Virus record (IMG/VR): IMGVR_UViG_3300007541_000160
Coordinates: 1-27,140 of that record
DNA from: a virus
Length of the DNA: 27,140 bases
Direction: 5' to 3' (one strand)
The translations under genes and the position numbers were made by a program. Shown here in pieces: positions 3,422 through 26,051 of the stretch (position 1 is the stretch's first letter; every line of letters starts with the position of its first letter). Under the pieces are notes generated by a model. It was not told where the DNA came from, did no database searches, and saw only the letters and a program-made list of their open reading frames with translations.

Positions 3422-3629
3422 CCCGAACGACGACTTCTGGGTCGACGACTTGTATGACATGGACGACGACCAGTTGCGTGCAGAAGCACAACGCTACGAA
3501 CGTGTAGCCAAAAAATATGAGCAAGTGAAGGACAAGCGGAAACTGGGCGAACAGCGTTTGTCATACCAGTTCGCATACTTGCGACACCACGAAGCATTGA
3601 AGATATTGGAGGCAAAGACAAATGTTTGA
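3396..3629 (+). CDS. Helical hypothetical protein (77 aa)
   Basis: ATG 3396 is preferred to ATG 3390 because AGGCGG at 3382-3387 stands eight bases upstream of it. The N-terminus is acidic (DPNDDFWVDDLYDMDDDQL). Residues of about 27-75 form a long charged, coiled-coil-like helix. The start lies about 25 bases inside the winged-helix gene, so the two are probably translated together and might interact. No family is recognised. Confidence 0.65.
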   Translation: MALLNGFLDPNDDFWVDDLYDMDDDQLRAEAQRYERVAKKYEQVKDKRKLGEQRLSYQFAYLRHHEALKILEAKTNV

Positions 3630-3756
3630 GTTCTGGTATTTGACGTGGGCCATTGGGACCGGGTTCATCATGGGCATGGTGGCCTATCGGCTGATGCAAC
3701 TTCTTATCCGATACATCATGTCCCCGCGTCCTCGATACAGGAGACATGGCCGTTGA
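3622..3756 (+). CDS. Small single-pass membrane protein (44 aa)
   Basis: ATG 3622 overlaps the end of the previous gene. Residues of about 4-30 are hydrophobic with small glycine steps (IGTGFIMGMVAY), and the tail RPRYRRHGR is strongly basic. This fits one membrane helix with a cytoplasmic C-terminus. Early phage proteins of this type can act at the host membrane (superinfection exclusion, inhibition of host functions), but no specific role can be assigned. Its TGA overlaps the TTG start of the helicase gene. Confidence 0.6.
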   Translation: MFEFWYLTWAIGTGFIMGMVAYRLMQLLIRYIMSPRPRYRRHGR

Positions 3757-13629: not shown

Positions 13630-14364
13630 TTATTCTCCTGGCAACCTTAAGGCTATGCCATACACTTCTTGCGGCGAGGCCCATAGTGACCGGCGCGTTG
13701 TACCTTTGCTTCTTGAAGCATCAATGATTTCTCCGTTTCCGGCGTAAATAGCAATGTGGCTTCCATCCTTCCAAGCCACTATATCACCCGGACGTAAATT
13801 ACTTACAGACGTACGGACACCTGGAATGTTACGACCCTGCCATCCAGCAGAATGTTGCGAAATTCCGTAACCCAACTGGTTATATACAGCCATGACAAGA
13901 CCAGAACAGTCAATACCGCGAGCAGAAGTCCCTCCGAGTTGGTAAGGTGTTCCTCTATACGAACTTGCAGACTGCACTGCAAATCTTCGTGCGTCAGAGA
14001 GATTTCCGTTAGCATCAAAAGCCTCTCCAACCTGGTCAGATGTCAGGTTACCTTGATAATCGTATGTTTGTTGCGGTACTTGCCGAGCTAATTCTTGTTG
14101 CCTTTGAGCAGCTGCCATAGCCCTCTGTCGGACAGCAATTTCTTGCTGCTGTTCTGCCAGCCTAGCGCTTTCTTCACCGACACGCTGTAGCGTATCCATC
14201 GCCCCACGCTCAATGGCACTAATTGGTTCCCCAACGACAGGAGTCATGGCAGGCAAAAAATCTCCTACACGCGTGTCGGGCTGGCGTACCCGAGCAGCGA
14301 ACTCTTCAGCAGATTCTCGTGGGTTACGTTTCTGCTGCTCCTGAATAAAACCAATCATTGACAT
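13630..14364 (-). CDS. NlpC/P60 peptidoglycan hydrolase (244 aa)
   Basis: Residues of about 125-240 are an NlpC/P60 cysteine peptidase: YRGTPYQLGG, then DCSGLVMAVYNQLG (C153), LRPGDIVAW and SHIAIYAGNG (H203), with D215 a possible third residue. It should cut the peptide part of peptidoglycan. The first 120 residues are helical and Gln/Arg-rich, with no signal peptide and no typical cell-wall binding repeats. Two roles are possible: endolysin working with the adjacent holin-like protein, or a virion-associated enzyme that opens the wall during DNA entry. The TAATG overlap with the giant internal protein favours the second; the adjacent membrane protein favours the first. It may do both. Confidence 0.88.
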   Translation of the reverse strand: MSMIGFIQEQQKRNPRESAEEFAARVRQPDTRVGDFLPAMTPVVGEPISAIERGAMDTLQRVGEESARLAEQQQEIAVRQRAMAAAQRQQELARQVPQQTYDYQGNLTSDQVGEAFDANGNLSDARRFAVQSASSYRGTPYQLGGTSARGIDCSGLVMAVYNQLGYGISQHSAGWQGRNIPGVRTSVSNLRPGDIVAWKDGSHIAIYAGNGEIIDASRSKGTTRRSLWASPQEVYGIALRLPGE

Positions 14365-17300
14365 TACTGGTTCTTTTCCCTTTCCTCAGCACGTCTAAGC
14401 TGTTCCTCAATTTTAGCCAAATTGACGTAACTGCTTCTACTGTAAGGCGTAATACCAAAACCAGTCAGCCAGTTGCTAAACGACAGTGCCTGGTCCCACA
14501 CGTTTTTGTTGCCAGATTCGTATTGGAACTGCCTGTCTAGGCCGCTACCAGTCAGCAGGCCAAGCAGCGAGCCCGTCACACTGTAACTTGATACGTTGCT
14601 GACGTAACCTGCGCCAGGGATACTGGAGTCAATGTATTCGCTCATGTCACGAATACGTGACTGTGAGCCAAGCCTGGTGCCTGTTGCAAGTTCAATAGGC
14701 AGTTTAAATGCGGGGTTTAGGCCATCAAAGAACGCCTCATCAATACCGCCACCAAACTGGTTGATAACGTCCCATGAAGCAATACCTGGCCGTACGCCGT
14801 AGTATTTACCGTTAATTTCAAACGTCGGTCCCTGTTGCTCTTCAGTCAAGAAGCTGGGGAATCGCTGGTCGACAGGGAACGGGTCATACATTGAGTGAGG
14901 GTCAAGTCCCATCGCTACCGCAAGGTTATAACTAGCCTTGTTAGGCAGCTGAATTCTGTGTGGTGCCATAACCGCTGTCTCAAGCACTGCTTGTACAGCG
15001 CCCTTGTTCCAGTGGTAGAACGAGTAAAGCCTACGAGCAAACGTCTTCTCGCCAACACTCATGGTCATCAAGTCGGGGTGAAATTTACCGACACGCTCTG
15101 CAGCAAACTCAAACAGCTCTTCTTTAGATTTAGGCGTAACTGTCACACCAAAAGTTCTTGCCATCGGCTCGCCGTCTTGCGCCTGTCGGATGTATTGCAA
15201 GAAGTGTTGGATACGCGAGTAGTGGTCTTGGCCTTCAGAAAGCGTTGTCCAAGCACGCTCCCATTTACCGCCACGAAGAGCAGTACCCAAGCTGGCAATA
15301 CCAAAGAATTTTTCTAGGAATCGGCTTGCCTTTGTCTCAATTAGTTCTTCGCCAATAGCCTCGGACTTGTACAACGCTTGGGCGCTCTTAGCAGGAGGCA
15401 GCACACCATAACGGAGCATGGCTTCAGCAATTTCGTCTTCGGTAATGGTGCCAAAGTTTTTGCTCTTAATACCAAACTGTCGACCACTTTTAACTGTAAC
15501 AAGTGGCTCTTCCAAGTAACCCAAAGCACGAACTACGTCAACATCTGTGTAGTTTCTTCCGCCCTCACGCATAAACCGCCATGCCGCACGGTGGCTTTCA
15601 GCAGCGTATTTAAGGCCCTGAGCCAGGTAGGTCATTGTGATACCGCCGACAAAGTTTCTGACGTGGTGACCAAGACGCGCCACCGTCACAGCGTACTTCC
15701 AAGCCTCAGTGAACGGGTCAAGAATTTTACTAACAAGCTGACCAACCTCGCCGTTAAGACGAGTGCTGCTGCCCACAACTCTGTTTACAGCATCCCATGC
15801 CTCGGCAATATCAGGGTGTACCCAAAACTCTGTCTCAACTAACTGGTCGAGTCGTCCATCACCCGTGGCACTAATCTTGACCCAGCCTTTAACTTTCTCA
15901 GCTGAACCGACACCGGACTGCAGGGCTTTCTGTCGGAACTTAGTGACGTATCCTACCTCTGCCGAGGCTTGAATGGCGGCATTGTAGACACCTTTCATAA
16001 AGTCGACAGGGTCTTGGATGTCCCACTCTTTCCACTGGTTTAGCGTAGCCTTAAGGATGTCCTCATTTGTCAGCGGACGTCCCGCATCTTGAGCAATTTT
16101 GGCCGCATCAGCCAAGCCTTTGTTTAAGTCAAAGAATCCATCCTCAGTAGCCGTTACAACCGTAGACTTGGTCCGACCCAGCACAGCTTTGCTCTTAAAC
16201 AACATGTTCAAGTAAGCCACACCTGCACCAGTACGGAAGAACGTGTTACCTAACAAGTCGTTAATTGGGTTATCGGAAATGTTAAACACGCGGCCAAAAT
16301 GGGTAGACAGGGCTTCGTAAGCTTCCTTAACCATCGGATTTTTGGGTACACCAAGTGCAGGGTTTTTTACGTGTTTAAACGCTTCCTGAATAATGGTCGT
16401 ACTGCCATCCTCTATGACACCAGCAAACTTCTTCGACAGTGCATCCAAAGGCATCAAATACTTGTGCTGTAAATACAGCGGCAACGTTTCCTTAGTCCTA
16501 AACAGGCTGTGAATCCACAGCTGGTTGCGGCTGTGCATACCGGCACGAGCGTTAAAGAACTTGTTAAGAGGCTCCAAGAACTTAATTGTAGCTACCTTAA
16601 TGTTCTTGTAGCCTTCTCCCTCCAAGAACCTGTTGAGGTTAAACCTGGCCTCACCCATTTCATCGTAAGCATTGTCAATAAACTTTTGCGGCGTGTCGGG
16701 GTCAAAACCGCGCTGACCGTCGTTAGCGGCGTTAAGCAAATCTTCCGTATTCTTTTCAATCGCCTCTACTTGCTCATCAGCAGCCTTCAGCGACTCTTCG
16801 CGTCCCTTAACAATGTCTTCCTTTTTGCCTTTAGCAACCTTGTCTGCCAGGTCGACAGTGGTCTCAGCGTTTCGCTTATAACCGTAACCCAGTGCAGCGT
16901 TAACACGGAGCATTGCAATCTTAGAGCCGAGCGGCGACACCTTATCCATCGACTCTTGAATATCCCTAATGACACGGCCATCCTTAGCGACAATGTTTAA
17001 CTGCTCAGCAAGTTTTGTTGCGTCAGCTGCAATGTCCAAGAAAATGCCCGCATAAATGTCGCTAAGCACCTCTCCCTCTGCCTGCCCACGAGCTTTTATA
17101 GCAAGCTGCCTGTTAGTGGCTACCTGTGCCAAGTCTTCGCGTGCGTTATAAATGGCATCAACTAGTTTCTCCCTGGCCACGCCACTGTTCCACTCCAAAG
17201 CCTTACCCGCCTGGCGTACCCCATCACCAAAGTTACCGGCCTTACCAACACCGTACTTAAACCAGCTGTCGTCCTCGGCCAAGAAGTTAGGGATGGGCTT

Positions 17301-19667
17301 AGTTCTGCTGTTGTCTGCGCTGTCAAGGACAGGATTACGGCGCTCTGTCGACTTCAAAATGTCGTCGATAAGCATACGAAGCTCGTCTTCGGGCAAATCT
17401 TTCTTGACGACAGTTGCGGCCACAGCGTCCATAAACTTGGTGTACGGAAGTGTGCTCTTAATGTTGTTGTGGAACAAAAGCTGCAAAATCTTGTCGTTAC
17501 CGAGGTAAGCCTTAACAACATCGTAAGCATCCGTCCAACGCAACGACACAACCTCTTTAGCTGCGTCGCCCAAGAACTGCACATCGAAATGCATCGTCAA
17601 ACCGTGCTCATCAAAAAGCTTTTCAATAAGCTTCATAGACGCCAGGTGCAGCCTCTCGGCTTCGGCACCACGAATAAAACCGCGAGTAGCGCCCGCTAAA
17701 ACGTCAGGAGCCTTGCCGATTTCTAGCAACTTAACTAGGTTGCGCTGCAGCGACAAAATAACGTCTAAGAAGAAGTGGGTGTTGGCTGCCAAAGCCTTGA
17801 CACCAGTACCTTCGCCGTAAACGCCAGCAGTTCTAAACGTACCGTCGTCGGTAATAAAGTCGTGCTTGCCGTTAATAACGTCAAGGTCCATCTTCTCAAA
17901 AATAGGGCCTGGCTTGTCCTTACCGCCGTACTTCAACGTGTCCTCGACAAGCTTCAAAACAATTGGCGCAAGCTGCTCAGGAGCCAAAGCTCTAGTATCA
18001 GAAGGTAAATACCCCAGGTTACGCAAAATCTGCTCAGCATCCGTACCGGCATCAATGCTTTCACTGATAGCAGTCAAATCGTCGGCAAGCGATTCCGGAG
18101 TAACTGTCGGAATATCCATTGCCTTACCCGCAGCATCATCAAGAGCCGCCTGATACATTTTCTCGTCAATACTGAAACGACGCAGGAACTCAGAACGCGC
18201 TTTCTTAATTGTGCCAAATGTAGGCAACGTACCCGCCTCATCAAGGGCTAATTTAATGCTGTCAATAAGCTTAGCCAGCGAGTTGACAGAAAGCCTGCGG
18301 GCTTCTTTAAACAGGTCCTCGCCAAAAACTTTCATCGCTATTTCAAGTGTTTCGCCCTCAGCTTCTTTAAGCTGCCTTGCAATCGTCAAATTGACGTTCT
18401 CTTGAATGTCATTAACAACCGTGTCAGACGCTTTAATAAAGTTACCAACCGCATCAACCGGCTTGCCCGTCTTAGCCCTCTCAACATAACGTTTGTGCAT
18501 CGGCTTAAGAATCTGGTTCTCAATCTCACGAACCATTGCAAAGTCTTTGTTCTTAATAGAGTTTTCGTAAAAACTAAGCAAAGCTTTCATGCTTGTCGTA
18601 TTACCGCCCATACGACTAGCAATAAATTTAAACGGCCTTAAGTTAATAGTTTGTGCAGTAAAAGCCTTAGCAGAAACAGACTGTCCAAACTCAGCAGCCC
18701 ACTTATTAAATGGTTTATAAGCAACTTTGACAGCCGCAGGAGTAATCGTCGCCAACCGCTCAAACAACTTAGTAAACTCGCCACTAAGCGGCTCATTCTT
18801 ACGACCAACCCTAATCTTCTTCTTCTGCAACAACTCACGCACAACCTGAGACGGCGCATTAATATTGTCAGGCTCAGCAGCCAACTTCTTAGCAATTGCC
18901 TCGTTAGCCTCAGCGACAGGGAATGACTCAGAAGAAACAGCCTTACCTTTAGGAACAGCCGCTTCACCATCCTGAACAAACTGGTCCTTAGCAGCAGTCT
19001 TAGGTGCTTTCTTAGCTTGTACTCTAGCCGCTTCCTCAACAACACTGGTACCCTTTTCAGCTGCCCTAACACCGGCCTCAGCTACGTCAGCACCGACAGT
19101 GGCTACTTCCTTAGACGCTTTAGCAGCAGCCTTAGCTGCCCAAACACCAGGAATCAGGTTAATCGGGTCAAGAACAACATCCCCAACAAAACCTAACGCG
19201 CCCCTAACCTTAGGGTCAACGTTATTCTCAACATCAACATAGTTAGGGTTATTGCGGTAATAGGTATCGACACCTTTCTCAATAACACCTTCCCACGTAA
19301 TCCTGTCCTCCGGAGAATACTCAATACCGGGAACAAGGCCATGCAAAGCACCACGAGCAGGCGACGTAAGGTTCTTAACATACACGCCAAACGCGTCCTT
19401 CATCGCACCAGCAGTATCACCAGTACGCGCCGTTTGCTGAATACGCTCAATATCTTTAGGCAAATCCAGCAAACTAGAAATCGGCTCAGTAAGCGAATAC
19501 ACGCCACGGTTTAACGCGTCAACAAAACCCGCCAAAAACCCGCGATTGCCTGGACTAGATTTTAAAGGCTCTGTCGGCGCAGGAAAATTAAACAGCGGCT
19601 GAGACTGTACCCCAGGCTGGCGGTTTTTAGCATATTCAGAAAAACTCTTAGGAGAGGTGTCTGACAC
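14364..19667 (-). CDS. Giant internal virion (ejection) protein (1767 aa)
   Basis: No enzyme motif was found by eye. The protein is mostly helical. It has an early hydrophobic stretch (about 165-190, around DVVLDPINLIPGVW), an Ala/Lys/Glu-rich coiled-coil region (about 190-250), a long alpha-helical middle and a C-terminal part with LYSFYHWNKGAVQAVLETAV, then a Ser/Gly-rich region and a charged end. In podoviruses such very large helical proteins sit inside the capsid and form the channel through which DNA crosses the cell envelope; position between internal proteins and a wall hydrolase fits that. The start is GTG 19667, close behind AGGAGG (19672-19677). It is the largest gene in the window, about 5.3 kb. 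Confidence 0.75.
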   Translation of the reverse strand: MSDTSPKSFSEYAKNRQPGVQSQPLFNFPAPTEPLKSSPGNRGFLAGFVDALNRGVYSLTEPISSLLDLPKDIERIQQTARTGDTAGAMKDAFGVYVKNLTSPARGALHGLVPGIEYSPEDRITWEGVIEKGVDTYYRNNPNYVDVENNVDPKVRGALGFVGDVVLDPINLIPGVWAAKAAAKASKEVATVGADVAEAGVRAAEKGTSVVEEAARVQAKKAPKTAAKDQFVQDGEAAVPKGKAVSSESFPVAEANEAIAKKLAAEPDNINAPSQVVRELLQKKKIRVGRKNEPLSGEFTKLFERLATITPAAVKVAYKPFNKWAAEFGQSVSAKAFTAQTINLRPFKFIASRMGGNTTSMKALLSFYENSIKNKDFAMVREIENQILKPMHKRYVERAKTGKPVDAVGNFIKASDTVVNDIQENVNLTIARQLKEAEGETLEIAMKVFGEDLFKEARRLSVNSLAKLIDSIKLALDEAGTLPTFGTIKKARSEFLRRFSIDEKMYQAALDDAAGKAMDIPTVTPESLADDLTAISESIDAGTDAEQILRNLGYLPSDTRALAPEQLAPIVLKLVEDTLKYGGKDKPGPIFEKMDLDVINGKHDFITDDGTFRTAGVYGEGTGVKALAANTHFFLDVILSLQRNLVKLLEIGKAPDVLAGATRGFIRGAEAERLHLASMKLIEKLFDEHGLTMHFDVQFLGDAAKEVVSLRWTDAYDVVKAYLGNDKILQLLFHNNIKSTLPYTKFMDAVAATVVKKDLPEDELRMLIDDILKSTERRNPVLDSADNSRTKPIPNFLAEDDSWFKYGVGKAGNFGDGVRQAGKALEWNSGVAREKLVDAIYNAREDLAQVATNRQLAIKARGQAEGEVLSDIYAGIFLDIAADATKLAEQLNIVAKDGRVIRDIQESMDKVSPLGSKIAMLRVNAALGYGYKRNAETTVDLADKVAKGKKEDIVKGREESLKAADEQVEAIEKNTEDLLNAANDGQRGFDPDTPQKFIDNAYDEMGEARFNLNRFLEGEGYKNIKVATIKFLEPLNKFFNARAGMHSRNQLWIHSLFRTKETLPLYLQHKYLMPLDALSKKFAGVIEDGSTTIIQEAFKHVKNPALGVPKNPMVKEAYEALSTHFGRVFNISDNPINDLLGNTFFRTGAGVAYLNMLFKSKAVLGRTKSTVVTATEDGFFDLNKGLADAAKIAQDAGRPLTNEDILKATLNQWKEWDIQDPVDFMKGVYNAAIQASAEVGYVTKFRQKALQSGVGSAEKVKGWVKISATGDGRLDQLVETEFWVHPDIAEAWDAVNRVVGSSTRLNGEVGQLVSKILDPFTEAWKYAVTVARLGHHVRNFVGGITMTYLAQGLKYAAESHRAAWRFMREGGRNYTDVDVVRALGYLEEPLVTVKSGRQFGIKSKNFGTITEDEIAEAMLRYGVLPPAKSAQALYKSEAIGEELIETKASRFLEKFFGIASLGTALRGGKWERAWTTLSEGQDHYSRIQHFLQYIRQAQDGEPMARTFGVTVTPKSKEELFEFAAERVGKFHPDLMTMSVGEKTFARRLYSFYHWNKGAVQAVLETAVMAPHRIQLPNKASYNLAVAMGLDPHSMYDPFPVDQRFPSFLTEEQQGPTFEINGKYYGVRPGIASWDVINQFGGGIDEAFFDGLNPAFKLPIELATGTRLGSQSRIRDMSEYIDSSIPGAGYVSNVSSYSVTGSLLGLLTGSGLDRQFQYESGNKNVWDQALSFSNWLTGFGITPYSRSSYVNLAKIEEQLRRAEEREKNQ

Positions 19668-20908: not shown

Positions 20909-21738
20909 TAGAAACCAGCCTCCTGAATCGCACGCATAATAGCCCTATTCTCGGCATCACGACGCACCTGCTGACGCCGCTCCTCAGCTGTCGTACGCTG
21001 TTGAGCAAGCTCAGTATCCAAATCTTGTCTAAATCGACTACGACCTGTCTCCATACCCTCAAGCTGCTGGTTAAGACGGTTTTGGAACTCCGCAAAATTA
21101 CGAACAAAGTCACTAGACCTCAACGTTCCACGAGCAGCAAACTCATCACGAGCAGAACGAGTACCCATAGCCGCAGCACTAAACGGGTCGTACTCACCTT
21201 CAATATCAAACTGGCCTCTAATTTTATCGGGCTCAGCAGCGGCAGTTAAAGCCCCAGCAACCGGGTCAGCAGCCTGCTCGCCAATAGGTCTCATAGCTAC
21301 AAAACCTTCTTGCGGCCTATACCCAAGACGACGCAAACCAGTCAAATAGTCCATTCCGTAACGTTCACCACGGGTCTGGGCACCTGTTTCAAAGTCGCGC
21401 AAGGCACGGTCAATTGCGGCAATCTGTGAAGCGTATAGTGAGTCGTTCCAGTTAATAGGACCAAGCCCTCTAGATTGTGTAGTTGCGGGAAGAGCCTGAA
21501 TGTTCTGAGAGCCTCCACCTTGGCTTCCTCCACCTCCGCCAGTGTCATTACTTTTAATTGTTGGTGCTTTTAGCTCGTAGCCAGGGTTTCTAACAAAAGT
21601 ACCTTGTTGTATATTTCCAACATCTTTTTTAGCATAGCTTTGAGCTAAATCAGCTTGCCGAGGATTAGTAATTTTAAATCCAACAGCTCTTCTTTTTGCA
21701 GCATCTAAATCGGCTTGTCTAGGATTTGTAATAGCCAT
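20908..21738 (-). CDS. Probable internal virion protein with duplicated N-terminal motif (276 aa)
   Basis: ITNPRQADL occurs twice near the N-terminus (residues 3-11 and 23-31). A Gly-rich linker (GGGGGSQGGGS, about 68-78) separates this from a helical, Arg/Gln-rich C-terminal part ending RAIMRAIQEAGF. The shape matches that of the next protein: disordered front, helical back. It is probably a partner in the ejection apparatus. The same TAATG overlap connects it to its neighbours on both sides. Confidence 0.6.
   Translation of the reverse strand: MAITNPRQADLDAAKRRAVGFKITNPRQADLAQSYAKKDVGNIQQGTFVRNPGYELKAPTIKSNDTGGGGGSQGGGSQNIQALPATTQSRGLGPINWNDSLYASQIAAIDRALRDFETGAQTRGERYGMDYLTGLRRLGYRPQEGFVAMRPIGEQAADPVAGALTAAAEPDKIRGQFDIEGEYDPFSAAAMGTRSARDEFAARGTLRSSDFVRNFAEFQNRLNQQLEGMETGRSRFRQDLDTELAQQRTTAEERRQQVRRDAENRAIMRAIQEAGF
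21650..21732 (-). repeat. Duplicated segment encoding ITNPRQADL twice
   Basis: On the minus strand two similar stretches of about 27 bases (around 21646-21672 and 21706-21732) encode the same nine residues 60 bases apart. They differ at several third positions (for example GGATTTGTAAT versus GGATTAGTAAT on the plus strand), so the duplication is not very recent and the peptide has been conserved. Confidence 0.65.
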
Positions 21739-21875
21739 TAGTACATCCCCGAAGAAGTCTTACCAGGGCTACCAGAAAGCTTACGCATCATGGCCTTTTT
21801 ACGCTCCTCATTCTCGTCATACTTAGACTTCTGAGGAGCAAGACGATTGCCCATACTCATTTTATCGCGGTACAT
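21738..21875 (-). CDS. Tiny basic late protein 3 (45 aa)
   Basis: The ATG (cat at 21873-21875) overlaps the previous stop and its TAA overlaps the next ATG. The protein is basic. Its middle reads DENEERKKAMMRKLS, which lines up with the C-termini of the two small proteins just upstream, and is followed by a short Ser/Gly tail. The function is unknown; place and charge suggest a minor virion or DNA-associated protein. Confidence 0.6.
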   Translation of the reverse strand: MYRDKMSMGNRLAPQKSKYDENEERKKAMMRKLSGSPGKTSSGMY

Positions 21876-22051
21876 TACGACAGCCTCTTTCGTATAGCTT
21901 TCTGTCTAGCAGCTGCCATATTATCCACCAAATTAGGATAAGGCCGTCCTGCAGCTTTAGCTCTTGATTTAGCCTCAGACTTCTGTGCAGGAGTCAAAGA
22001 CTTCCGCTCGCTTTTCGGTTTAGGGTTTTTTGTTTCCCACACTTTTTTCAA
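21875..22051 (-). CDS. Tiny basic late protein 2, TTG start (58 aa)
   Basis: The TTG (caa at 22049-22051) is preceded by AGGAGG five bases upstream and forms a TTGA overlap with the stop of the gene before it, so the start is well supported. The protein is very rich in Lys and Arg. It contains AAGRPYP and ends DNMAAARQKAIRKRLS, closely matching the end of the 65-aa protein upstream. The function is unknown. It could bind DNA in the capsid or contact internal proteins. Confidence 0.65.
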   Translation of the reverse strand: MKKVWETKNPKPKSERKSLTPAQKSEAKSRAKAAGRPYPNLVDNMAAARQKAIRKRLS

Positions 22052-22245
22052 GATAGCCTCCTGAGCAAAGCGTCCCGTCTAGCGGCAGCTTTATTATCAC
22101 GTATAGTATAGCCCGCCCTATCCCTTACTTTACCAACAGTAGGCATAGGACGTCCACTCCCGTAATGCTTCTTTCCAGCAGCATACGGGTTAAAACCGCC
22201 ACCCCCCTGGGGTACGCGGCTAAACTCAGTACGAACGCGGTTCAT
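22048..22245 (-). CDS. Tiny basic late protein 1 (65 aa)
   Basis: The ATG (22243-22245) shares a base with the stop of the nozzle gene. The protein is basic with a Gly-rich front (PQGGGGFNPYAAGKK), then GSGRPMP and the C-terminus DNKAAARRDALLRRLS. The GRPxP and DNxAAAR..A...RLS blocks recur in the next gene, so the pair appears duplicated. No family is recognised. Confidence 0.65.
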   Translation of the reverse strand: MNRVRTEFSRVPQGGGGFNPYAAGKKHYGSGRPMPTVGKVRDRAGYTIRDNKAAARRDALLRRLS

Positions 22246-23789
22246 TAAGTGATTTCCTTAGACACGGTCTGCTTCGGGTTCACATAAGTCATCAATGAGA
22301 ATAGTCTAACAGGCGCATCAGCAGCAGTACCTGTCGTCTCAAACGACACAGTGAAATAAATTTGCCTAAACCGCAGCGATTTAAGGAACTTAGTAAACAC
22401 ACGACGGAACGTTAAAGCGGTTTCTGTAACGCTTGTCGATACGGGGGCTGCACCAGAAGCAGGGTTAGCCCACGCATTAGACAACGAAGCCTGCCAAGTT
22501 TGAGACAACAAAACCTGCCACGTTGTAGCAAAAGACTGTGTAATAGGGTGCGCCGTACCCACGACAGTGCCCTTAAACCTGGCATCCAAGCCCCACCAAA
22601 ACAAGCGCTTGTAAATAGAACTCGCCTGGTAATTAAAGTTCTTTGTTTGAATATTGCACGTCATCGTCTCCGTAACACCACTCACATACTCATCAGTGAT
22701 GCGCAATAGTGGGGCAGAACGAGAACCACCAGCAGGCACCTCAATATTCTTATGCGTCAAAACAATAGCTTTATCCTGGTCATTACTCCAAGTCGCCATC
22801 TTGCACAGCGAGCCAAACGTGTTGGACACCCACTTAGTCCACGAACGTGTCTGCAGACTGTATACAAACATTTGGTCAAAATACGTGAAAACAATGCGGC
22901 GGTTAAACTCTGACACAGCATAGTTATTGTGAAAACCCGACGTAACCGTAGAACTAAAAGGTGTTTTCACGTTAATCTGCGACGCACGGTTGTTTGCAAA
23001 CTCGTACGCCTTTTCGTCATACATAAAGTAAATGTACGACTCAAACTGTGTAATCGCATACCGCGAGTTCAACCCCACTGTCGGAAGAATTGACGACACC
23101 ACAGCTGCTGCGGGGTCAGTCGTGTACTGCAAACCAAACGTAGAATTAGTGCGGAAAATTAGCAGCGTGTTAAAGTACACCACCAACTCAACAATGTTCT
23201 GACCGTCGCCAGAACCAATATCCACAAAGTCATTACTCGCTACCCACAAAGACGGGTCAGCCGTCGTTTTAGACCTGTACAGCCTTGTACCCTGGTTAGT
23301 GCTGTCTTTACCCTCAGCAATCCATAAACGGCCCTTAAACGACACAATACACTCACCCTTAGGCATATTTGCGTCAGCCGTAAAACCACCAGCAACAGTC
23401 CAATAACCGCCAGGATTAGCAGAACCGACAGGGGCGGTCAGCCACGCCTTATCATCAAACTGTACAAAACCAGCAGCAGCAATCGTGTTAGTAATAAGAG
23501 TCCACGCAGTGCCGTTAAAATAGTATGTTTTGCTGTCACCATCGCTAGCAATCAAATATGACTGTGTTTGCGAAACCTGAAACGTACCCAGAAATTCTAT
23601 GTCTCCCGTCGCCGCAAGTGGAAAATCGATATCTAGGTCTTCAATAGGTGGGCGCGACTTTAGCGAACCATCAAGGTCCAACTCAAAGTTATTGCAGACG
23701 GTAAGTTCGTTGTCTGCAATAGCGGTAGGGTCACTGAACGTGTTGAGGCCACCAACAAAGGGCCCTACCTGTATCGACGTACCCGGCAT
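22245..23789 (-). CDS. Tail nozzle-like structural protein (514 aa)
   Basis: The start GPFVGGLNTFSDPTAIADNE, followed by CNNFELDLDGSLKSRPP, is the pattern of podovirus tail tube or nozzle proteins (gp12 of T7, gp10-like stabilisation proteins of P22), which wrap a beta-propeller around the DNA exit channel. The body is made of repeated beta strands with Trp/Tyr/Phe (YYFNGTAWTL, RLYRSKT, FMYDEKAYEF, VYSLQTRSWTKW). It comes directly after the adaptor gene, as in many podoviruses. The assignment is by pattern; which known family it belongs to is not settled. Confidence 0.75.
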   Translation of the reverse strand: MPGTSIQVGPFVGGLNTFSDPTAIADNELTVCNNFELDLDGSLKSRPPIEDLDIDFPLAATGDIEFLGTFQVSQTQSYLIASDGDSKTYYFNGTAWTLITNTIAAAGFVQFDDKAWLTAPVGSANPGGYWTVAGGFTADANMPKGECIVSFKGRLWIAEGKDSTNQGTRLYRSKTTADPSLWVASNDFVDIGSGDGQNIVELVVYFNTLLIFRTNSTFGLQYTTDPAAAVVSSILPTVGLNSRYAITQFESYIYFMYDEKAYEFANNRASQINVKTPFSSTVTSGFHNNYAVSEFNRRIVFTYFDQMFVYSLQTRSWTKWVSNTFGSLCKMATWSNDQDKAIVLTHKNIEVPAGGSRSAPLLRITDEYVSGVTETMTCNIQTKNFNYQASSIYKRLFWWGLDARFKGTVVGTAHPITQSFATTWQVLLSQTWQASLSNAWANPASGAAPVSTSVTETALTFRRVFTKFLKSLRFRQIYFTVSFETTGTAADAPVRLFSLMTYVNPKQTVSKEIT

Positions 23790-24935: not shown

Positions 24936-26051
24936 CTAAACTCCCGCTACTTGGCCCCATGTAAGGCCGTTCTGATTTACCCACTCTGTTCCGTCGTACA
25001 CAAGAAAATCATTGTTTGCAACACTGGTAATAGTCACGTCGTCAATGTCGTGAATGTGAGTACTGGGCAAAGCGCGAACAACTATACGTCCACCGGTTGC
25101 GTCAACACGAGTTACTGCCGCGATTGGCCTGCGCCAAGCGGGTGCAACAGGCTGTGTTTTAGTGAGCCCGCCTGGACTGCTTGCGTCCATGTATAGCAAA
25201 TCGCCAAGGGCCCACCCCGCATAGTCAGTTTTAATGTGGTCAACCGTACCAAATTGCATAACAAAACCAAAGCCGTCAGCATCAATTTCCTGGTACGTGA
25301 TACCCACAAGTAAGTCTGGCTCGTAACTTCCGTTCGACACAGCTGGGGTAACTGTTACGGTATCGCCGGTAGCTCCCGCAAACATGACCGGAGTGCCTTT
25401 AGCTATTGGGGTAGAGCCGGACGAGTTTTTAACACGAAAACCATGCATCTGACCAACACGCAGATTTACTGCATCTGGCAGCCCAACCTGCAGCGTGTCA
25501 AAGTCGCTATCCCACGAAATTTCGCCTTCTTCGGGGTCGTACTCTGCTGTGGTGTCAAAATCAATGTACTCAATTTCAGTTAAGTTACCAACAGCAGAAC
25601 CGTCAAAACCAACCGTCTGAGTACCGCTGTCGTATGTAATAGGTAGCGTTGCTGCAACCACCCCAGTAGGTCCGGGAGGGCCAGCAGGTCCCGTGTCACC
25701 AGTATCTCCCTTAGGTCCGACAGGGCCTACACTGGCAGCAAAAACAGTCCCATCAAACAAATACAGCGTGTCGTCAGTGGTATCAAACCAAATATCGCCA
25801 GTTGCCGGGTCAGTGGGTTCAACAGTACCGACAGTTACGGTAACACCAGTACCTCCTCCCCCGGCACCATTAACCCACTGACCCGCATCTGCGTCATAGA
25901 CGAGCGTTTGCCCGTCTTCAACATCAGTAAGAGTTACCGTTAAAATCTGCTTTCCAGCGTTATCGCTGTAAAACTTCCACTCATAATCAGAAAGAGAAAG
26001 GCCCTCAGGCAATGCAGAAACAGCCTGGTAAAAGAGAAACTTATTTTCCAT
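24936..26051 (-). CDS. Fibre protein with collagen-like stalk (371 aa)
   Basis: A short N-terminal domain is followed by a Gly-rich hinge (62-69), a DIWFDTTDDTLYLFDG strand block and a collagen-like G-x-y stalk at 109-130 (GPVGPKGDTGDTGPAGPPG). The C-terminal half contains EISWDSDFDTLQVGL and VGQMHGFRVKNSSGSTPIAK, a module common in phage fibres and head-decorating fibres. LVYD....WVN occurs near both ends (about 50-61 and 350-359), as does a HIHDIDD motif near the C-terminus. A trimer is expected. The gene directly follows the capsid gene, so a head fibre is as likely as a tail fibre. GGAG lies four bases before the ATG. Confidence 0.75.
   Translation of the reverse strand: MENKFLFYQAVSALPEGLSLSDYEWKFYSDNAGKQILTVTLTDVEDGQTLVYDADAGQWVNGAGGGGTGVTVTVGTVEPTDPATGDIWFDTTDDTLYLFDGTVFAASVGPVGPKGDTGDTGPAGPPGPTGVVAATLPITYDSGTQTVGFDGSAVGNLTEIEYIDFDTTAEYDPEEGEISWDSDFDTLQVGLPDAVNLRVGQMHGFRVKNSSGSTPIAKGTPVMFAGATGDTVTVTPAVSNGSYEPDLLVGITYQEIDADGFGFVMQFGTVDHIKTDYAGWALGDLLYMDASSPGGLTKTQPVAPAWRRPIAAVTRVDATGGRIVVRALPSTHIHDIDDVTITSVANNDFLVYDGTEWVNQNGLTWGQVAGV

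Follow-up and report, generated by a model that had tools for sequence, protein, structure and literature searches.

In phage T7, gp13 and gp7.3 aid assembly, and in phage T4 the capsid targeting sequence (CTS) of internal proteins is N-terminal and is removed by the prohead protease. The internal proteins of T-even phages are highly diverse and are injected, and only the CTS, which places them in the scaffolding core, is conserved (PMC3012670). In T7, gp6.7 (88 aa) bridges the portal barrel, gp14 and gp15, and after ejection its short helices bundle with gp14; gp7.3 is located at the adaptor-nozzle junction (PMC11784390). According to a review, ejection proteins like gp14, gp15 and gp16 have been described for phages of Gram-negative hosts and are absent from phi29-like phages (PMC8954989).

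The window analysed here is the whole stretch of 27,140 bases of a virus record, and shows a T7-like order of structural genes on the minus strand, on which all its features described below are located. This order is: major capsid protein, fibre, a 156-aa protein, a gp11-like protein, a gp12/nozzle-like protein, three tiny genes (P1, P2 and P3), P4 (276 aa), P5 (409 aa), a 1767-aa protein, an NlpC/P60-like protein of 244 aa and a small ORF of 91 aa. The nozzle-like protein (514 aa, 22245..23789) occupies the gp12 position, lacks the motif described below and forms the upstream border of a slot which extends to P4 (20908..21738), a predicted gp14-like internal virion protein with two long helices. 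P5 (19679..20908) and the 1767-aa protein (14364..19667) are in the gp15 and gp16 positions, respectively. A fibre-like protein of 371 aa (24936-26051) contains a collagen-like stretch, GPxGPKGDTGDTGPAGPPGPTG. At the N-terminus of P4 (21649-21735), ITNPRQADL is repeated in tandem (residues 2-10 and residues 23-31), each copy in a predicted short helix, and NPRQAD is also found at the P4 N-terminus in the related loci L034, L038, L039 and L044.

The ORFs of P1, P2 and P3 were confirmed in tandem, with overlaps of 1-4 bases. P1 (65 aa, ATG start, 22048..22245) is the conserved member of the slot and has a Gly-rich body, mostly predicted to be disordered, followed by a C-terminal helix which contains the motif ARRDALLRRL (residues 55-64, 22054..22083). 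P2 (58 aa, TTG start, 21875..22051) is missing from many relatives and combines a body of the phrog_34011 family (GRPYPN..DNM) and, added to it at the C-terminus, the tag ARQKAIRKRL (residues 48-57, 21881..21910). P3 (45 aa, ATG start, 21738..21875) shows a GNRLAPQK body, then the motif ERKKAMMRKL (residues 24-33, 21777..21806) and then a SGSPGKTSSGMY tail. The three proteins have in common A-R-x-x-A-[ILM]-x-[RK]-[RK]-[LM] at or near the C-terminus, and P4 has a weaker version of it at its C-terminal end, VRRDAENRAI (residues 258-267, 20938..20967), which is clearer in relatives (ARQDALRRRA). The earlier note had described a basic motif in three adjacent tiny proteins, two finishing on it and the third continuing, and the ORFs, coordinates and C-termini bear this out: in P1 and P2 the motif is followed by a single Ser and the stop, and in P3 by 11 further residues beyond RKLS.

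When only the window sequences are compared by whole-protein shuffles, the similarity is clear between P1 and P2 (p=0.0006), with p=0.057 between P1 and P3 and p=0.21 between P2 and P3. However, the relatives of P3 mostly show ARERAMMNRLSS or ARREAMMKRLS, to be compared with ARREAMLRRLS in the P1 of locus L023, and a profile comparison of P1 and P3 with hhalign gives a probability of 82%; at the family level, judged from these alignments, P3 is far nearer to P1 than the single sequences suggest. A scoring matrix of 10 columns was trained on P1 tails only, which avoids circularity when it is applied to other proteins, with a threshold of at least 6. When the C-termini of 36 non-overlapping ORFs in the window are ranked by this score, the adjacent P1, P3, P2 and P4 take the first four places, that of P1 being given by construction; the motif scores are 31.2 for P1, 17.4 for P3 and 14.9 for P2. 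P1 and P2 match different profiles, both annotated as of unknown function: phrog_33964 matches P1 (E 4.9e-7, residues 14-64, the GxKxYGxG...GYxxRD...ARRxAL region) and phrog_34011 matches P2 (E 3.7e-20, residues 2-51, LTPxxK..AGRPYPN..DNM), with the tag outside the match. In Pfam no match was found for P1 or P3, and P2 shows only a sub-threshold match to DUF3072. Matches of P3 to S-CAM3 were rejected as chance. The motif is almost certainly real and shared by unrelated neighbours.

P1 was found first in 57 viral-contig loci and later in over 150, many of which are repeated contigs. The slot is also present in three cultured relatives, Microbacterium phage Shocker (where P1 is gp34 and P4 is gp35), Cellulosimicrobium phage DS1 and Arthrobacter phage Jasmine, all of which show the gene order of the window (nozzle, slot and P4, then the genes whose products in the window have 409 and 1767 aa). 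Jasmine is a podovirus by electron microscopy (PMC5513430). These three (loci L060, L059 and L062, respectively) are podophages of Gram-positive hosts which retain a gp14/gp15/gp16-like gene set. A scan of bacterial genomes for a prophage or host clue gave no relative, and neither DUF6321 nor phage DS1 was found in the open-access papers searched.

In the relatives, the slot between the nozzle gene and P4 contains from 0 to 4 accessory proteins with unrelated bodies, the set of which varies, and most of them end in the motif. In L101, P1 (ARRNALLRRMGK) is followed by a DUF6321 protein (ARQKAAAIQRRMGK), by proteins of 74 aa (PRKKAIMKKMGKY) and 59 aa (QSLDAIKRRLQGM) and then by P4 (AREAAIQRRRQALMMGLGG), and L055 shows five genes in a row, including a zinc ribbon protein (ARKGALSKMA) and an MPFKS protein (ARTNALMKKA). 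In hold-out loci, the matrix score reaches at least 6 in 62% of the accessory proteins versus 2.9% of their own shuffled tails, and in 76% of P4 versus 6.2% of shuffled tails; it does so in 10% of P5, whose family mostly lacks the motif, and in 0/194 upstream structural proteins. The pattern [AS][ILMV]x[RK][RK][LMIA] is present within the last 35 residues of 24/45 accessory proteins (0.8 expected) and 17/29 P4, and is absent from the same part of 29 P5 and 194 upstream proteins; a search of upstream proteins by regular expression also gave 0/344. Twelve of the 19 accessory sequence families from loci with a clean P1 to P4 chain carry the motif (median member at least 6), where 0.42 are expected, the loci used being phylogenetically correlated. 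In all carriers the motif is confined to the last 45 residues, and in the accessory tags Ala at column 5 (95%) and [ILM] at column 6 (92%) are the most constant residues, the Arg/Lys columns being less constant. The occurrence of the motif in neighbouring small proteins is thus found across related loci, and the shuffled tails, which do not reproduce it, rule out Lys/Arg/Ala composition as its only explanation. The description in the earlier note holds for the three proteins and misses the motif on P4 and on other tagged accessory proteins (zinc ribbon, DUF6321, MPFKS and more).

The slot also contains proteins without the motif: those of 53-190 aa of the DINDAFFG type and those of the LysM type. 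In L004, L006, L007, L011 and others, a hypervariable protein of 53-190 aa, often with PAxDINDAFFG and without the motif, is located between P3 and P4; this protein of close relatives is missing from the window. Two DUF6321 proteins (L053, 6198-6500; L057, 3485-3778) contain an internal NPRRASFLARMGNMPGP resembling the tail of the P3 family, RERAMMNRLSSMPGK. Outside the slot, L418 shows small basic motif proteins (2676-2951 and 3434-3721) on that side of the scaffold gene which faces the portal, a second site of tagged proteins, and L105, L106 and L111 have a small basic motif protein on this side too, at about 6 kb upstream of P1.

The AlphaFold model of P1 is disordered save for a helix at residues 44-64, which contains the motif (pLDDT about 83). 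The prediction for P4 shows two long helices (residues 100-138 and 209-273), the second of which has the motif at its end. The best structural matches of this model are to ejected-state T7 gp14 (9jz0_0, Z 9.3, rmsd 2.5, 118/119 residues aligned; 8e4g_a, Z 9.5), a Z below 13 being also compatible with a common helical arrangement; unrelated coiled coils rank lower, with rmsd of 5.5-7.4. The Foldseek match to gp14 is a helical hairpin with an E of 1.7, alone not significant, so the assignment leans on synteny, and a profile of 47 P4 sequences matches no PDB chain at E up to 1. From the structural matches and the gene order, P4 is likely the gp14 equivalent. An amphipathic-helix reading of the motif was rejected, since its hydrophobic moments are no higher than those of shuffles. 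The accessory tags are more similar to the P1 tag found in their own genome than to those of other genomes (permutation p=0.003, uncorrected for phylogeny), which fits a shared partner. Between the tags of P4 and of the accessory proteins no covariation within genomes was detected (p=0.93), so the tag of P4 may be an older version under separate constraint.

Compared with the described systems, T7 gp14 resembles P4 in the gene order (nozzle, P4, P5, giant protein), may also do so in fold, given the predicted two helices of P4 and their match to ejected gp14, and differs in that P4 has an extra disordered N-terminus and a motif end, while gp14 lacks the motif. T7 gp6.7 and gp7.3 are likewise very small and for the most part non-globular, and belong to a portal-nozzle-core system of the T7 type, in which the helices of gp6.7 bind gp14; however, they are encoded upstream of the portal gene and not between nozzle and gp14, no common tag has been described for them, and they show no sequence similarity to the motif. 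The motif was not found in T7 gp6.7, gp7.3, gp13, gp14 or gp15, and the P1-trained matrix gives scores of 0.7 for gp6.7 and -5.4 for gp7.3. The T4 CTS is also a short sequence shared by otherwise highly diverse small phage proteins and would be the nearest functional parallel, if the role proposed below holds, but the podophage tag is C-terminal, helical and basic, and from its C-terminal position it is not a member of the T4 CTS. No description of such a C-terminal tag was found in the open-access papers searched.

It had been proposed that P1, P2 and P3 arose by local triplication of a peptide module. In one form of this reading, the motif would be the residual homology of diverged copies and have no special role. 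The tails of P1 and P2 do agree at 10/16 residues, and in the window 4/5 identical scored residues use the same codons. The P2 family (phrog_34011), however, is widespread in unrelated phages, with homologues that have GRPYPN..DNM, and none of 62 distinct members away from P1 carries the tag (among the best 80 loci, "away" being no P1 in the 3-kb flanks): they stop 4-9 residues past DNM (e.g. AAARKK), and the copy of Synechococcus phage MinM2 ends in DNMRAAGRQKRGK, whereas P2 of the slot ends in AAARQKAIRKRLS. The GRPxP common to P1 and P2 does exist, but GRPYPN is native to the P2 family elsewhere, as is DNM; shared GRPxP was thus rejected as a sign of common origin, and two of the P1-P2 similarities are coincidental. 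The MPFKS family is tagged within the slot and in 1/30 members elsewhere (likewise among the best 80 loci); the lone exception is L418, which belongs to the same phage group by portal and capsid protein and contains an MPFKS protein and a 95-aa protein, both bearing the motif, between portal and scaffold, and motif proteins are similarly placed in three further loci. In L129 (Flavobacterium phage elemoA_7-9A) an MPFKS module is found within a 3694-aa protein annotated as a structural protein, and may be a virion module there. Codon identity at identical tag residues is 0.29 within genomes versus 0.25 across genomes, with no excess identity at the DNA level. Since the P2 and MPFKS bodies come from widespread families without the motif and codon identity is close to the cross-genome level, the tag was either added to different bodies or arose on them by convergence; DUF6321 supports an added tag less well, as a related basic extension, ADARKKARNISMRLKKKK, is present in Pelagibacter phage Hodr. 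At least 12 unrelated families bear the motif, and P4 has a different architecture; duplication is refuted for P2 and very improbable as a general explanation. Equally improbable is that the motif is a by-product of translation, in which tight gene packing requires a Shine-Dalgarno site in the last codons and an in-frame AGG AGG yields Arg-Arg. This would explain that the AGGAGG encoding the Arg-Arg of P1 (22057..22062) is also a Shine-Dalgarno site 5 nt ahead of the TTG start of P2, and that, where the motif ends no more than 2 residues from the stop, 24/31 RR pairs are AGGAGA or AGGAGG. Where it lies at least 6 residues from the stop, however, AGGAGG encodes 0/41 RR pairs and CGN codons predominate, which largely refutes this reading; the A-R-x-x-A-[ILM] part is unlike a Shine-Dalgarno site, and the upstream proteins of the same genomes, many of them tightly packed too, are motif-free, as given above. 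This switch with distance to the stop indicates that ribosome-binding needs shape codon choice and not the motif, and the Shine-Dalgarno constraint accounts only for codon choice where the motif abuts the stop codon.

We lean towards reading the motif as a helix for docking or loading that would act at the virion core; among the roles suggested in the earlier note, a targeting tag or a dock for the internal proteins is the best one. Presence in the virion, the partner and ejection are inferred. P1, P2 and P3 would be small proteins of a T7-like podophage, either structural or co-packaged, each finishing, or nearly so, in a short basic alpha-helix, and the gp14-like P4 would end in a similar one. 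This helix would be a common docking signal binding a single shared site close to the portal and the internal core, for which the portal barrel, the gp15-like P5 or, during assembly, the scaffold are candidates; different small bodies would thereby enter the virion and would probably leave it together with the core on ejection. The docking role is supported by the motif, by its recurrence on unrelated bodies of the slot and by its absence from their homologues elsewhere, and, among the models, by the predicted helix of P1 and the predicted fold and position of P4; the slot order gp12-slot-gp14-gp15-gp16 and the precedent of T7 gp6.7 were counted in its favour. No proteomics on any of the motif proteins was found. 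The Arg/Lys-rich tags, and the many accessory bodies that are basic as well, would also suit tails that bind packaged DNA non-specifically, as DNA-condensing or DNA-escort proteins in need of no specific partner, but this is unlikely: Ala at column 5 and [ILM] at column 6 are more constant than the basic columns, which makes the motif more than charge, and composition-preserving shuffles do not reproduce it. It is still less probable that the tag serves assembly only, binding a factor present only transiently (the scaffold, for instance, or a chaperone of assembly) and not loading the virion. In its favour, the slot is located where T7 has gene 13, and in L418, L105, L106 and L111 the scaffold gene has motif proteins on its portal side; against it, P4 as a gp14-like internal protein also bears the motif, which suggests that one carrier or more remains in the particle. 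Returning to the docking helix, we extend it only tentatively to a set of interchangeable small proteins (zinc ribbon, DUF6321, MPFKS, P2 and others) which might be loaded by one C-terminal address tag and delivered with the gp14-like ejection core.

If the docking reading is right, a motif of 10 residues would predict virion-core membership of small unknown proteins in a large, mostly uncultured group of podophages, and would give those small protein families their first testable function. It would also provide a short C-terminal label to try for the loading of foreign proteins into podophage particles. Widespread small families such as DUF6321, MPFKS and phrog_34011 would have been adapted to one virus group via their last dozen residues only. 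If the small proteins are also delivered with the ejection core, the tag would be a podophage counterpart of the T4 CTS, with its arsenal of injected proteins.
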